A program made the position numbers and the translations under genes. The notes under the pieces are model-generated. The model was not told the DNA's origin, did not search any database, and saw only the letters and a list, made by a program, of their open reading frames with translations. Of a stretch of 5,832 nucleotides of DNA, positions 139-5,832 are shown in pieces. Each line of letters starts with the position of its first letter. The stretch's first letter is position 1. Source of the stretch: a bacterium (lineage in GTDB: Bacteria > B130-G9); the NCBI GenBank assembly GCA_021160245.1, contig JAGHCW010000035.1, forward strand, positions 1-5,832. Direction: 5' to 3'.

Positions 139-2595
139 ATGAGAAAACTTGATATATACATTCTCCGCCAAATGGCCGGGCCCTTCGGCCTTTGCCTCAG
201 CCTGATCACGATGATCCTGATCATGCGGCAGACGCTCAGGTTGATGGAGATGATCATCAACAAGGGCATTCCCGCCTTATCGGTGGTCCAGCTGCTCATC
301 TACCTTCTGCCGTCGCTACTTGTATTGTCGATTCCTATGGCCGTTCTTGTTTCAACGCTGATGACATTCACCAGGATGTCATCCGACAGCGAGATAGTCG
401 CGATGAAGGCGACTGGCATCAGTCTCTTCAGGATGCAGCGACCGGCGCTTATCTTTGGCCTAGCAGCATGGATAGTATCGTCGTTGATAATGATCTACTT
501 CCTGCCGTTCGCCAATCGCTCGGCGAAAAAAATGATCTTTGAGATGGCGACCAAGCACGCCGATGCAATCATCGAGCCACGCGTCTTCTGCGATAGGTTC
601 AAGGATGTCGTGGTCTATATAGATGAGAAGCTTCCGGATGAGGCGATCATGCAGGGAGTCTTTGTCTCGCATCTGTCGGAGAATGGAGACCTTCGCATTA
701 TGGTCGCCTCGCGGGGCATGCTTTTCTCAGATGAGGAGAAACAGCAGAGCTTCCTGCGACTTGAGAACGGCAGCGTGCATGAACTACCCCGCTCCCACGC
801 CGAGAGATATTCCGTCTCCAGTTTCTCCACCCAAGACTATCCGATCCTGACTGAGTTCAGTGCGAAGAAAATGAAGAAGAAGATTCCCAAAAGCTATCGG
901 GAGATGACTCTTCAAGAACTCGACCAGCAGATAGAGCGGCGCCTCGTGAAAGTCCACGCGACAAAGGCGGCATACGAGAAGGCCAAAAGGAAGGCAAACC
1001 CCAAGAAAGGCGATGACAAAGGGATCGCCGGACTCAAACGATCGCACGAATACGAGAAGTTTCTCTACAACTCCAGTCGCGTCGAGCTCCAAAAGAAGTT
1101 CTCATTGCCGTTCGCGTGCGTCATCTTCGCTCTCTTGGGCGTGCCGCTTGGGGTTTTTGGGCGCCGATTGAAGCAGACCGGAAGCCTCGGGAGCAGTCTG
1201 TTCTTCTTTCTGATCTATTATGTGCTGCTATCGACTGGCGAGGATATGGGGGACAACGGCCATCTGCACCCGATTCTCGCCATGTGGTTTCCAAACGTAG
1301 CGCTCGGTCTCTTCGCCTCGGCGCTTCTTTACTATTCCGCCCATGAGCGGAAGCCGAGAATCTGGATCATTCTCTCCGACCTGGCCTTCTCGTTCTTTCA
1401 AAGAACCAAAGCCCTGCTGCTAAGGACAGGCGCCGTAAGGCAGTTCGGTCGGCCGTGGGCAACCAGCCTTAAGATGGCAAGCGAGCGTCTGGGAAGCAAC
1501 AGGATCGGTTTCCCAAAGCTCCTTGACCGTTACGTCGCATCGCAATTTATCAGGATATTTTGGATTGTGGTTGTTGGCCTCGGCACAGTCTTCTGCCTGG
1601 TGCAGTTCTTCGAGGTGCTGGATGACGTGATGGAACACAAGTCGGGGCTGTATCCGGCCCTCAAGTACGTTCTCTTAAGCCTTCCGCAGCTGCTCTTCTG
1701 GCTGGTACCAGTGGCAGTTTTGATTACAGCGATGATGACCATGAATATCATGACAAGAAGCAACGAGACTACTGTTCTCCTTGCGGGCGGAACGAGTCTG
1801 CAAAGAGCATCTATGGCGATTGTCATCCTAGCGTTTCTTTCGAGCCTCGTCGCCTTTACGCTTAACGAGTATATTGTCCCATACACGAACAAGGAGGCGG
1901 AGCGGGTCAAGCACGAGGAGATCAACAAGCGCAAGCGCAAGAGCAAGTTCGCAAAACATAAGATATGGTACCGAGGCGCCCATAATCGCATCTATAACAT
2001 AGAATACATCGACCAGAACGCCCAGAACGCCTTGATACAGGGCTTCACGATCTTTGAGTTCACAGATGATTTCCACATCAAGCAGATTCTTCGCGCAGAA
2101 AGGGCCTATTTCGCCGACGGGAATTGGTTTTTGGAGAACGTTGACTTCAAACAGATAACGGATAAGGGGCCTAGGTCGGAACTAATCGAGCGCATGGTTA
2201 TCAAACTCGATGAGACCCCGGCAGATTTCATCAAATCACGCCCCAGGCCTGACGAGATGAGCTATGATGAGCTCAGAAGCTATATTGAAGATCTGAAGAG
2301 CGCCGGCTATAGCTACCAGAAGTACCAGACCGATCTTATGAATAAAATGGCGCTGCCGGCGATTGCATTCATAATAGCGCTGATCGCTGTCCCCCTGGGC
2401 GCAAGGTCGGGAAAAAGCGGCAAGCTCGTTGGATTGGGCGGGGCAATCGCCATCGCCGGTGTCTTCTTCGTCGTTCACTCCTCGTTCATTTCGTTTGGAC
2501 ACAGCGGACGGATACCCTACTTCTTGGCCGCCTGGGCCGCCAATATACTATTCGGTGTTGGGGGATTGTTTCTGTTCTCCCACGCGAGGACCTAG
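139..2595 (+). CDS. lptF/lptG: Fused LptF-LptG lipopolysaccharide export permease
   Basis: This is probably the whole transmembrane part of the LptB2FG ABC exporter, which extracts LPS from the inner membrane and passes it to the periplasmic Lpt bridge. The 818 residues are two consecutive YjgP/YjgQ-family permeases; each is normally a separate protein of about 360-400 residues. Half 1 (about 1-400) is LptF-like: N-terminal LDIYILRQ, membrane segments near 14-30, 50-77, 102-121, 321-340, 348-365 and 378-399, a periplasmic domain (about 135-250) and a GVPLG motif (334-338). Half 2 (about 459-818) is LptG-like: LLDRYVASQF (461-470), segments near 473-493, 508-536, 557-576, 737-754, 763-783 and 793-813, and VPLG at 751-754. 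A linker of about 60 residues (400-458) joins them; six segments per half place both ends and the linker in the cytoplasm, so fusion is topologically easy. Half 1 carries a basic insertion (about 274-309). The ATG follows GAGG (131-134) by four bases, and the nearest upstream in-frame stop is at 88-90. No ATPase (LptB) is visible in the window. Confidence 0.93.
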   Translation: MRKLDIYILRQMAGPFGLCLSLITMILIMRQTLRLMEMIINKGIPALSVVQLLIYLLPSLLVLSIPMAVLVSTLMTFTRMSSDSEIVAMKATGISLFRMQRPALIFGLAAWIVSSLIMIYFLPFANRSAKKMIFEMATKHADAIIEPRVFCDRFKDVVVYIDEKLPDEAIMQGVFVSHLSENGDLRIMVASRGMLFSDEEKQQSFLRLENGSVHELPRSHAERYSVSSFSTQDYPILTEFSAKKMKKKIPKSYREMTLQELDQQIERRLVKVHATKAAYEKAKRKANPKKGDDKGIAGLKRSHEYEKFLYNSSRVELQKKFSLPFACVIFALLGVPLGVFGRRLKQTGSLGSSLFFFLIYYVLLSTGEDMGDNGHLHPILAMWFPNVALGLFASALLYYSAHERKPRIWIILSDLAFSFFQRTKALLLRTGAVRQFGRPWATSLKMASERLGSNRIGFPKLLDRYVASQFIRIFWIVVVGLGTVFCLVQFFEVLDDVMEHKSGLYPALKYVLLSLPQLLFWLVPVAVLITAMMTMNIMTRSNETTVLLAGGTSLQRASMAIVILAFLSSLVAFTLNEYIVPYTNKEAERVKHEEINKRKRKSKFAKHKIWYRGAHNRIYNIEYIDQNAQNALIQGFTIFEFTDDFHIKQILRAERAYFADGNWFLENVDFKQITDKGPRSELIERMVIKLDETPADFIKSRPRPDEMSYDELRSYIEDLKSAGYSYQKYQTDLMNKMALPAIAFIIALIAVPLGARSGKSGKLVGLGGAIAIAGVFFVVHSSFISFGHSGRIPYFLAAWAANILFGVGGLFLFSHART

Positions 2596-2756: not shown

Positions 2757-4418
2757 ATGGCCCGAGATTATGATGAAAATGCCTGGTTCAACCGATTGAA
2801 GGTCGGTGTTGGCCAGATAAAAACAAGCACTGGCGATTTTCCGGGAAATGTCGAGAAGGTCTTGAATGCCATAAAGAAGGCTGAGGAGCTTGGCTGCAAC
2901 CTGGTGGTCTTTCCCGAGATGTGTCTCGCCGGATGCCCGGCGCATGACTTACTCCAGAGGCCGGACTTCGTTCAGGGCCAGATTTCCGCGATGCGAGACG
3001 TGGCAAGTCGCGTTGGCCGGATAATCGTGCTTCTGGGTTTCGTGTCCCGCAAGAAGGAAGATAGAATCGAGTATCTTCATAACGCAGCCGCGCTCTGTTT
3101 CGACGGCAAGGTGCTGCGGGTGATAGAGAAGAGCTCCATAGGTGAGCACAGCGGGCTTGAGGAGCGTCATTATATGACGAAGGGGGAGCTTGCTCCACCT
3201 GTCAGGATTAACCGCGTAGCGGTCGGCGTCCTGGTCGGAGATGATGTTTTGAGGCCCGGGACTTGCGAGCAGTTGGCAGAGCAGGGGGCGCACGTGATCG
3301 TGGCGCCCATCGCCTCGCCTTTCCGGATAGGGGCAACCGACAGTCGGATATCTAGAATTGCCGAGAGGGCCGACGAGGCGAGTGTCAACCTATTGGTTGT
3401 GAACCGGGTGGGCGGCCAGGACGAACTAGTGTTCGACGGCGCCAGCTTCGCCGTTGATGATTATGGAGAGCGAATATGGCAAGCGCCTCAGTTCGAAGAG
3501 GGTCTTTTTGTCGTCGAGGTTTCGGCGGGAAACAGGCCGGCTGCGCTTCCCGATGACCTTGAGCAGGTCCGCGGCGCGCTGGTCACCTCGATTCGCGATT
3601 ATGTTCATGATTGCGGCCTCTCCAAAGCGATTGTGGGTTTGTCAGGAGGGATCGATTCTGCGCTCGTTGCTGCGCTTGCAAAAGATGCGCTCGGGCCGGA
3701 GAATGTCCTGGGCTTGCTCATGCCCAGTGGCATAACATCCAAGGAAAGCACGGACTATGCGGAATCGCTCGCCTCGAATCTTAGTATCAAGACAGAAAGC
3801 GTCCCGATTCAGCCTATTCTGGACACCTACATCGGTAGTTTGAGCGGGCATTTCGTCGGCAAGGAGCCTGATGTTACTGAGCAGAATCTTCATGCGAGGA
3901 TACGAGGCGATATCTTGATGGCGTTTTCAAACAAGCTAGGCCATCTAGTGCTCTGTACGGGCAATAGATCGGAAGGATCGACGGGCTACGCGACGCTTTA
4001 TGGTGATATGGCCGGCGGCTTCTGCCCACTCGCGGACGTTCCGAAGACGCTCGTCTATAGTCTTGCGGGGCACATCAATAGCCGGACAGGTCAGGAGGTA
4101 ATCCCCAAGACCATAATTGATAGGGAGCCAACAGCGGAGTTGAGACCGAATCAAACGGACGCCGAGTCGCTTGGGCCATACAAGCAGTTGGACCCAATAC
4201 TCGAGGCGCATCTTGACCGGGGATTGGGTATTCGGGAGATTGTGGACAGCGGCTTGCCCGAGGAGGCGACTCGAGACGCGCTCAGGCGTTTTTATTGCAG
4301 CCAGCACAAGCGTCACCAGGCCGCTCCCGGGCCGCGCATCGTGTCCGCGAGAACGTCTTCTGAGGTCAGACTTCCAATCAACTCCCACTTCGACGCATGG
4401 TTCAAATTCTCGGAATAG
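2757..4418 (+). CDS. nadE: NAD+ synthase with a glutaminase-type domain lacking its catalytic Cys
   Basis: This protein should carry out the last step of NAD+ synthesis: ATP-dependent amidation of nicotinic acid adenine dinucleotide, in the cytoplasm. Its 553 residues match the usual short form of two-domain bacterial NadE. Residues about 13-265 form a nitrilase-fold glutaminase domain and about 275-553 the ATP-pyrophosphatase synthetase domain. The synthetase half keeps SGGIDS (296-301), the region leading to TGNRSE (401-406; commonly TGNKSE), TLYGDMAGG, PTAEL (458-462) and HKRHQAAPG (517-525). In the glutaminase half, the catalytic Glu (FPEM, E54) and Lys (EKSS, K125) and the GGQDELVFDG motif (219-228) remain. 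However, the nucleophile motif, normally close to ICEDLW, reads VGDDVL (160-165), putting Gly161 at the Cys position. The LPNY-type loop after the Lys is also replaced (SIGEHSG). The reading frame is intact, so the gene is not a simple pseudogene. I infer ammonia-dependent activity, or ammonia supplied by another protein; a changed substrate is possible. A promoter lies just upstream, and the macro-domain gene follows 91 bases later. Confidence 0.92.
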   Translation: MARDYDENAWFNRLKVGVGQIKTSTGDFPGNVEKVLNAIKKAEELGCNLVVFPEMCLAGCPAHDLLQRPDFVQGQISAMRDVASRVGRIIVLLGFVSRKKEDRIEYLHNAAALCFDGKVLRVIEKSSIGEHSGLEERHYMTKGELAPPVRINRVAVGVLVGDDVLRPGTCEQLAEQGAHVIVAPIASPFRIGATDSRISRIAERADEASVNLLVVNRVGGQDELVFDGASFAVDDYGERIWQAPQFEEGLFVVEVSAGNRPAALPDDLEQVRGALVTSIRDYVHDCGLSKAIVGLSGGIDSALVAALAKDALGPENVLGLLMPSGITSKESTDYAESLASNLSIKTESVPIQPILDTYIGSLSGHFVGKEPDVTEQNLHARIRGDILMAFSNKLGHLVLCTGNRSEGSTGYATLYGDMAGGFCPLADVPKTLVYSLAGHINSRTGQEVIPKTIIDREPTAELRPNQTDAESLGPYKQLDPILEAHLDRGLGIREIVDSGLPEEATRDALRRFYCSQHKRHQAAPGPRIVSARTSSEVRLPINSHFDAWFKFSE

Positions 4419-4433
4419 AAACTGATGGCGCGG

Positions 4434-4508
4434 CTCTAGATCTTACTTTCAATTGGGGACTGGGCTGTGCCTCGGGCGGATTGCGGTCAGTAAGGGGATG
4501 ATCTAGAG
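4434..4508. repeat. 9-bp inverted repeat between nadE and the macro-domain gene
   Basis: CTCTAGATC (4434-4442) is matched exactly by its reverse complement GATCTAGAG (4500-4508), with 57 bases between. The right arm ends two bases before the GTG start of the macro-domain gene and overlaps the in-frame TAG (4504-4506) that blocks any longer N terminus. In RNA the pairing could bring the start codon close to a long stem-loop. No T run follows, so it is not a typical terminator. Each arm contains the palindrome TCTAGA, which makes a chance match somewhat easier. Confidence 0.35.
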
Positions 4509-4509
4509 A

Positions 4510-5040
4510 GTGGATGAGATTCTCTTCGGCAGAAAGAAGATCAGGCTCGTGGAGGGAGACATCGCGGCGCAGGATGTGGACGCGATTGTGAATGCTGCCA
4601 ACAGCGAGCTCTGGATGGGATCGGGCGTCGCTGGGGCTATCAAGCGGGCCGGAGGGCAAGAGGTTGAGGACGAGGCTGTCGCTTTGGGGCCTATCCCGAT
4701 TGGCGAGGCTGCCACAACTGCGGCGGGCCGGCTGAGAGCGAAATACGTCATACACGCGGCCGCGATGGGCCCGAATCTCGTGACAGGCGCCCATCAGATA
4801 AGAGAAAGTACTCGCAATTCGCTGATTCGAGCTCACGACCTTCATCTTGCGAGCATTGCATTCCCCTCGATTGGCACAGGAGTTGGTGGTTTCCCGATGA
4901 AAAGTTGTGCCGAGATCATGCTCTCCGAGGCGAGGCAGTTTTTGGTTGAGCGTGACACAACAATCGAAGAGATCGTATTCGTCTTGTGGGGCAAACGGGC
5001 CTATGATGAATTCGCCGAGGCTCTTGACGAGTTTAAATAG
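4510..5040 (+). CDS. Macro-domain ADP-ribose-binding protein
   Basis: A stand-alone macro domain (Appr-1''-p processing / COG2110 type) of 176 residues, the usual size for a single-domain member. Such proteins bind ADP-ribose, and many remove it from proteins or hydrolyse O-acetyl-ADP-ribose. Visible motifs are GDI (16-18, adenine-contacting Asp17), VDAIVNAANS (23-32), the glycine-rich GSGVAGAIKRAGG (37-49), GPIPIGEA (60-67), AKYVIHAA (77-84) and the phosphate-binding loop SIGTGVGGF (120-128). The catalytic Asp found in MacroD/YmdB-type enzymes (GVDGAI) is Ala41 here, as in AF1521-like members (GVAYAI), so binding or a weaker or different hydrolase activity is possible. No signal peptide is present; it should act in the cytoplasm. 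The GTG start is forced by an in-frame TAG six bases upstream. The best Shine-Dalgarno, AGGGG (4493-4497), is rather far at 12 bases. The gene follows nadE on the same strand and may share its transcript, a sensible pairing of NAD+ synthesis with ADP-ribose handling. Confidence 0.9.
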   Translation: MDEILFGRKKIRLVEGDIAAQDVDAIVNAANSELWMGSGVAGAIKRAGGQEVEDEAVALGPIPIGEAATTAAGRLRAKYVIHAAAMGPNLVTGAHQIRESTRNSLIRAHDLHLASIAFPSIGTGVGGFPMKSCAEIMLSEARQFLVERDTTIEEIVFVLWGKRAYDEFAEALDEFK

Positions 5041-5112
5041 AGGTTGCTCTAGTTCAATTGTGCAAACAGCTGACCGCCTTGTCGATAAGTAAGCTCACAG
5101 CATAAGAGGTTG

Positions 5113-5832
5113 ATGGCAAAAGTGCTCGCTATCAGAATCCCCCAGTTATTCACCTTTCTCCTTTGCACAGCTATTTTCGGGTACCTCTTCGTGGGGATGG
5201 CTCCGGGTCCCTTGAGCGTTCAGGTAGGAATCGCCATCCTTTTTATCCTCGCCATGCTGGCGCCGCCTCTTGTCGGTCCGGAATGGGCGCTTGTTATCTT
5301 CGCCGCGATTATCCCGTTGGTGGGCATCATTCCGAGGCTCATGGGCTCACCCAAAATGCCAATTCTCGTCTTTGCGTTCCTCGGCTTTTGTAGCGGAATG
5401 AGCGCCCGCGCCATGATGTCGAGTTCGGCTCGCTCCACGAGTCGCATTCCCGGTCGGCCGCCGCTTCTTGCGCTCTGCGCCCTTGTTCTTACATCAGGAG
5501 CGATAACGACACTGAGATTTGTGAACTTCTTCCCATTCTCGGATGAGCCATTCAGAGATTGGATCGTCAATTGCATGGGAGTTCTGACTTCGGAGGCGGT
5601 GAACAACACGTTCACTGAGGGCATCTCCTTTTTATCGGGGGCGGCCTTTCTCATCATCGGGCATAAGACCTTTGCAGAAATGTCGCATGAGGCCCGAGCG
5701 GCAGCCCTCAGGCGAGTTGCTTGGGCTGTTGTGCTCTCGGGATTCGCGTCAAATCTCTTTGCGCTTTGGCAGGTCTTTTCAGCTAGATTCCTCGTCATTG
5801 GGTTCATAACGGGGATGTACACCGACTCGAAC
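5113..5832 (+). CDS. Multi-pass membrane protein, probable O-antigen ligase/polymerase family (3' end missing)
   Basis: An open frame of 240 codons starts at ATG 5113 and runs off the window with no stop. AAGAGG (5104-5109) lies three bases before the ATG, a short but usable spacing; the next in-frame Met is residue 29. Hydrophobic stretches near residues 9-30, 37-55, 58-75, 82-103, 117-134, about 170-183 and 200-220 indicate at least six or seven membrane passes, with a short basic loop (104-115: SSARSTSRIPGR). The end reads ALWQVFSARF, then GFITGMYTDSN (230-240). This resembles the Gln...Arg...Gly...(D/N)-x-N signature of O-antigen ligase / Wzy-like proteins, in which the Asn is usually followed by a membrane segment. 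If so, it would act in the inner membrane, polymerising O-antigen or joining it to lipid A-core. The diagnostic large periplasmic loop lies beyond the window, so the family call is moderate, though the membrane-protein call is firm. Confidence 0.6.
   Translation, partial: MAKVLAIRIPQLFTFLLCTAIFGYLFVGMAPGPLSVQVGIAILFILAMLAPPLVGPEWALVIFAAIIPLVGIIPRLMGSPKMPILVFAFLGFCSGMSARAMMSSSARSTSRIPGRPPLLALCALVLTSGAITTLRFVNFFPFSDEPFRDWIVNCMGVLTSEAVNNTFTEGISFLSGAAFLIIGHKTFAEMSHEARAAALRRVAWAVVLSGFASNLFALWQVFSARFLVIGFITGMYTDSN

Follow-up and report, generated by a model that had tools for sequence, protein, structure and literature searches.

A two-domain NAD synthetase with glycine at the catalytic cysteine position of its glutaminase domain, predicted to work on free ammonia

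Introduction

When the catalytic cysteine of the glutaminase domain is mutated in the yeast and mycobacterial NAD synthetases (NadE), glutamine-dependent synthesis is lost and ammonia-dependent synthesis is kept. In the literature covered here, fused NadE proteins, in which a glutaminase (G) domain is joined to a synthetase (S) domain, are all treated as glutamine users, and the elements of the interface between the two domains were proposed as a necessary and sufficient mark of this property (PMC3376133). Among the elements through which the two domains touch is the C-terminal loop (PMC3376133). In vivo, ammonia is the physiological nitrogen donor of single-domain NadE (PMC3376133), and the two-domain NadE of Mycobacterium tuberculosis also accepts it in free form (PMC6946656). 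Work on the M. tuberculosis and human enzymes assigns a role in contacting glutamine, in the constriction between the glutamine and ammonia tunnels or in gating the glutamine tunnel to the residues that correspond, in the numbering used here, to Tyr60, to the loop 131-136 (YRE loop) and to Trp165; in the M. tuberculosis enzyme the YRE loop is connected with one of the tunnel constrictions by Lys644, a lysine late in the sequence (PMC6946656). PII regulation was reported for the NadE2 proteins of Azospirillum, Herbaspirillum and Synechocystis (PMC7196632).

A dead glutaminase domain has been described in human carbamoyl phosphate synthetase 1 (CPS1), in which the Cys is replaced by Ser294 and free ammonia is used (PMC4655335). 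Among open-licence papers we found no earlier report of a natural glutaminase-dead NadE, which is weak evidence of absence. In this study we describe a bacterial NadE that has Gly in the nucleophile position, and we compare it with its relatives.

Results

The window, i.e. the whole stretch of DNA that was analysed, is one complete contig of 5832 bases from a genome (G000) of 3.43 Mb and 94.8% completeness. On the forward strand, where all features of the window described here are located, nadE occupies positions 2757-4418 and encodes, from an ATG start, a two-domain NAD synthetase of 553 aa. The protein scored 534.7 bits against NF010588, the NCBIfam equivalog model of NAD+ synthase, with a cut-off of 479, and its domain order is CN_hydrolase (PF00795) followed by NAD_synthase (PF02540). 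The fused domains and the score above the curated cut-off place it in the two-domain NAD synthetases (NF010588 / type F). The single-domain ammonia-dependent class is defined by the lack of a glutaminase domain, and in the window NadE this domain is present and predicted to fold. The closest solved relatives found by phmmer were the two-domain enzymes 4f4h, 5kha and 3n05. We concluded that the window NadE is a type-2, short and probably dimeric, two-domain NAD synthetase.

The nitrilase-type G domain covers residues 14-256 (positions 2796-3524; PF00795, 4.1e-22) and is predicted to be inactive from its losses at conserved positions. The S domain, residues 268-546 (3558-4394; PF02540, 1.2e-71), is apparently intact. 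Its active-site motifs SGGIDS (3642-3659), TGNRSE and GDMAGG and the extended C-terminal loop KRxQxxPGxR (4308-4376) were all found.

Residues 156-165 of the translation read VGVLVGDDVL, and codon 161 is GGA (3237-3239). phmmer aligned this segment without gaps to the Cys motifs of 4f4h (GVVICEDVW), 5kha (GVLICEDIW) and 3n05 (ALAICEDLW). The initial annotation, which had placed Gly161 in the column of the nucleophilic Cys with flanks alignable without gaps and had given the positions of Glu54, Lys125 and Cys170, was thus correct in these points. A shifted alignment was rejected, since the three solved structures and approx. 150 relatives put the Gly in the Cys column. Of the Glu-Lys-Cys triad the window NadE retains Glu54 (2916-2918) and Lys125 (3129-3131), and the Cys is Gly161.

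Our sample of the family, and of its phylum, comprised four genomes, three of which contained NadE. The question whether Gly161 is common to a clade, raised in the initial annotation, could be answered positively, as Gly was present in all three. The two other NadE-bearing genomes belong to a different genus, their proteins are 55-56% identical to the window NadE, and both use GGC where the window has GGA. A further record, L033 (recorded as Candidatus Coatesbacteria bacterium B130_G9), is from the same family as the window and its locus is identical to L002. Because Gly was found in both other NadE-bearing genomes, separately assembled, in two genera and with different codons, chance or a read error as the origin of Gly161 was rejected, as far as sequence allows.

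We also considered substitute nucleophiles within the domain. Cys170 was rejected as it is not conserved in the window clade, and Cys60 likewise is not a shared replacement for the same reason. The sole G-domain Cys common to the clade is Cys47, which precedes the strand of Glu54 and is also found in 9% of the Cys161-bearing proteins.

The Cys is not the only residue that the G domain has lost. In 143 sampled Cys-bearing two-domain NadE proteins Tyr60, Pro129, Tyr131, Val133, Phe134, Glu162, Trp165 and Asn183 are near-constant, and in the window NadE all of them are replaced. Position 60 (2934-2936), the conserved Tyr of the GYP motif, corresponds to Tyr58 at tunnel constriction 1 of the M. 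tuberculosis enzyme; it is Tyr in effectively all Cys-bearing relatives and Cys or Gly in the window clade, with Cys60 in the window NadE itself. The equivalent of the YRE loop, residues 129-136 (3141-3164; loop role from PMC6946656), reads GEHSGLEE instead of the usual PxY(G/D)VFDE. At position 165 (3249-3251) Leu stands at the conserved Trp of CED(L/I)W, the gate of the glutamine tunnel (PMC6946656); the counts for Trp165 come from alignments in which this column stayed in register, and it was shifted in one re-alignment. With Pro129, Tyr131, Val133, Phe134, Trp165 and Tyr60 replaced, neither the YRE loop nor the tunnel gate is intact.

The window NadE has lost 13 of the 35 G-domain positions on which at least 95% of the Cys-bearing proteins agree, and the largest loss in any Cys-bearing protein is 4. 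Among the strongly conserved S-domain positions 50 of 57 are kept. The earlier description of an otherwise complete domain could therefore not be upheld, as Tyr60, Pro129, Tyr131, Val133, Phe134, Trp165 and Asn183 are gone together with the Cys. Judged from the sequence, the glutamine site is dismantled around a kept Glu-Lys pair and a kept fold.

The nucleophile was absent from 8 of approx. 153 two-domain NadE proteins sampled, replaced by Gly in six and by Ser in two. These are the three proteins of the window family (Gly), L035 (Gly; Deltaproteobacteria by the title of its record, ranked Myxococcota), L072 of genome G154 (Gly), L187 of G236 (Gly), and L019 of G018 and L199 of G165 (both Ser), and all come from metagenome-assembled genomes (MAGs) or assemblies. 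The resulting rate of about 5% is rough, because the survey profile was made from dead proteins and L035 was obtained by a pattern scan, so that the sample is non-random. A tree built from the S domain alone, leaving out the decayed G domain, needed five changes, and its supported branches force at least four. This points to separate losses of the nucleophile in about five bacterial lineages. Two of the losses, in G236 and in the genus of G018 and G165, are recent to judge from their close relatives: CEDIW is present both in G387, a family member of G236 in which the loop is intact too, and in G301, which shares its genus with G018 and G165.

The Ser codons at position 161 are TCT and AGT in L019 and L199. 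These belong to different Ser blocks and are not one step apart, so one change from Cys to Ser would not account for both; either two separate Cys-to-Ser events took place, or selection holds the Ser. In the genome of L035 (G389) we found in addition a type-1 NadE, L214, of 698 aa (NF002730, 1046 bits) with an intact CEDVW and loop. The dead copy of G389 is backed up by L214 and may have a different job there.

Pro129 was absent from all eight nucleophile-less proteins compared with 1 of 145 Cys-bearing ones. Counted by lineage, Val133 was lost in five of five and Tyr131 in four of five; the probabilities of co-loss take the five lineages as independent trials and are uncorrected for the number of columns tested. 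The strongest S-domain column was Phe533 of the C-terminal loop, Thr in the window NadE (4353-4355), which was lost in four of the five nucleophile-less lineages and kept in 96% of the Cys-bearing proteins. These residues suggest that a communication path between the two halves of NadE decays along with the nucleophile. Glu54, Lys125 and Glu136 are kept in all eight Cys-less proteins, and with Glu54 and Lys125 in every dead protein the pocket could still do something. The sole sampled Cys-bearing protein without Pro129 is L034, from a MAG of Acidobacteria gp13; it is possibly an early step to loss, or merely shows a tolerated change.

Between the two close relatives L002 and L003 the dN/dS of the G domain was approx. 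0.19 (0.093/0.477) and that of the S domain 0.12. Relative to the Cys-bearing proteins, the window clade diverges further in its G domain than its S domain would predict (z -3.3 to -3.7). These values indicate that the dead G domain is under relaxed but real purifying selection, as would be expected if it still folds, takes part in the dimer or has a regulatory role.

The AlphaFold model was built from 7 sequences; it has a mean pLDDT of 72.6, low in loop 132-134, and is unfit for side-chain detail. It shows a strand at 154-158 and a helix at 161-165, in the usual arrangement of the nucleophile elbow, with Gly161 at the predicted helix start. Superposed on 4f4h, 437 residues were aligned with Z 33.0 and an rmsd of 3.5. 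Crystals of the M. tuberculosis C176A variant (3sdb, 3seq and 3szg) were among the structural matches of the model.

In the window genome no second NadE was found at the sensitivity used. An initial contig scan with a single protein as query gave no match. In none of the three family genomes with NadE did an amidotransferase gene adjoin nadE. G000 encodes a free-standing CN-hydrolase of 266 aa with the Cys motif MMICFDW, located on another contig than nadE and beside an ftsK-like gene, and relatives of it are present in G001 and G002. It matches models of the archaeal-type nitrilase and of N-carbamoylputrescine amidase, all below cut-off. PII-family matches were detected in one of the four family genomes (G000).

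Discussion

We consider it probable that the window NadE has lost glutamine hydrolysis, that its synthetase works on free ammonia, and that the G domain is kept for fold, assembly or regulation. The G domain would then produce no glutamine-derived ammonia, and the S domain would adenylate deamido-NAD and accept free cytoplasmic ammonia in the manner of single-domain NadE. The dead G domain would be retained as part of the oligomer, as tunnel wall or as regulatory surface. We infer the use of ammonia from the loss of the triad and from the presence of a single NadE in the genome. In the fourth genome of the family, which is 86% complete, no NadE was detected, and this counts against the explanation. 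The initial annotation had proposed that glutamine hydrolysis is lost, and here the clade-wide Gly, the co-loss of loop and gate residues and the same pattern in other lineages support it well, even though the rest of the domain turned out not to be complete. Among the three outcomes it had named, the best match is the use of free ammonia, with the domain kept in a structural or regulatory role. A partner amidotransferase is less well matched, as none adjoins nadE and a lone nitrilase-type protein lies elsewhere.

Such a partner, a free-standing nitrilase-type amidase or class I amidotransferase that docks and feeds the synthetase, would have a counterpart in the two-subunit NadE of Thermus thermophilus, and two-subunit glutamine-using NadE is known (PMC3376133). 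The 266-aa CN-hydrolase of G000 with its intact Cys and its relatives in two other genomes would be the candidate, but its gene lies on another contig than nadE, the query P0001 had no match to it in G000 at E 1e-3, the models it matches below cut-off are those of the archaeal-type nitrilase and N-carbamoylputrescine amidase, and the docking face of the S domain would already be occupied by the protein's own G domain. We find this source of ammonia improbable. A pocket reassigned to bind glutamine or another metabolite uncut, or to form a widened ammonia inlet, and so to gate the synthetase, is a doubtful reading as well. It is consistent with the retention of Glu54 and Lys125, with the purifying selection on the G domain and with the mostly smaller replacements (Tyr to Cys or Gly, Pro to Gly, Ser or Ala, Cys to Gly, Trp to Leu) at known tunnel constrictions (PMC6946656). 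Plain relaxation, however, also turns large conserved residues into smaller ones, the fold itself may require the Glu and Lys, and no new set of residues common to the dead clades was shown.

A substitute nucleophile elsewhere in the domain, such as Cys60 at the former Tyr site, is very improbable. Cys60 is found in the window NadE and has arisen separately in G236, in its dead protein, and the equivalent Tyr adjoins the glutamine site in known structures (PMC6946656), but the two nearest relatives have Gly at this position and the other dead lineages have Tyr; Cys170 is unconserved and the clade-common Cys47 occurs in Cys161-bearing proteins too. An error of sequencing or assembly, or a pseudogene in decay, is hardly credible. 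The assemblies are draft and the losses in G236 and the G018 genus are recent, but against this stand the Gly that recurs, with different codons, in two genera whose genomes were assembled separately, the open frame, the low dN/dS and the conserved S domain. With some reserve we also put forward a more speculative view, which we hold to be on balance unlikely: in bacteria with plentiful ammonia, a repeated adaptive switch could have made the glutaminase half a domain for regulation or for ammonia entry that no longer cuts glutamine, in which the recurring changes at the nucleophile, the Pro129 loop and Phe533 rewire the communication between the halves.

In length, domain order, fold, C-terminal loop and SGGIDS motif the window NadE resembles the type-2 dimeric glutamine-dependent enzymes of Burkholderia thailandensis (4f4h) and Acinetobacter baumannii (5kha) and Azospirillum NadE2, and this group gave its best matches in both sequence and structure. 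It differs from them in the Gly at the nucleophile and in the replaced residues of YRE loop and gate, and presumably does not use glutamine. PII as the reason for keeping the G domain was rejected, and general PII regulation in the window family is unlikely, because only G000 of the four genomes has PII-family matches. With the single-domain NadE of Salmonella and Methanocaldococcus jannaschii the window NadE presumably shares its chemistry, from deamido-NAD, ATP and free ammonia (PMC3376133), but these lack the glutaminase domain which the window NadE keeps as a whole. CPS1 is a precedent for an amidotransferase with a kept dead glutaminase domain, as predicted for the window NadE; it is unlike it in being an unrelated enzyme with an unrelated class I glutaminase fold and activation by N-acetylglutamate. 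In M. tuberculosis NadE C176A the same catalytic residue is gone and the fold tolerates the loss. That variant is man-made and belongs to an octameric type-1 enzyme, whereas the natural variants are in addition without the loop and gate residues.

By membership the window NadE is a two-domain NadE, yet in its residues it appears to fall outside the glutamine-dependent type, which is marked by the triad and by an intact YRE loop and tunnel gate. Annotation models label every such protein an ordinary two-domain NAD synthase. If, as predicted here from sequence comparison, domain and interface are kept without the glutaminase chemistry, the interface rule fails for approx. 1 in 20 of the sampled proteins. 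The Cys-less proteins are natural repeated experiments on the crosstalk between glutaminase and synthetase, and the co-lost residues point to the loop and the C-terminal contact as carriers of the signal.

Downstream of nadE the window encodes a macro-domain protein of the ADP-ribose-binding type (176 aa, positions 4510-5040, PF01661). In G000, G001 and G003, which span two genera, nadE is followed in the same order by the macro-domain gene and a gene for a Wzy-type (O-antigen-ligase-like) membrane protein (window 2757-5832; L203 5385-9829; L204 344-4779). The proximity of a macro-domain gene to a gene for NAD synthesis may reflect a metabolic link. Upstream, at positions 139-2595 (forward strand), an open reading frame of 818 aa combines two permease domains of the LptF/LptG type and is therefore an LptF-LptG fusion, which is also present in two other genomes of the family as frames of 817 and 829 aa.
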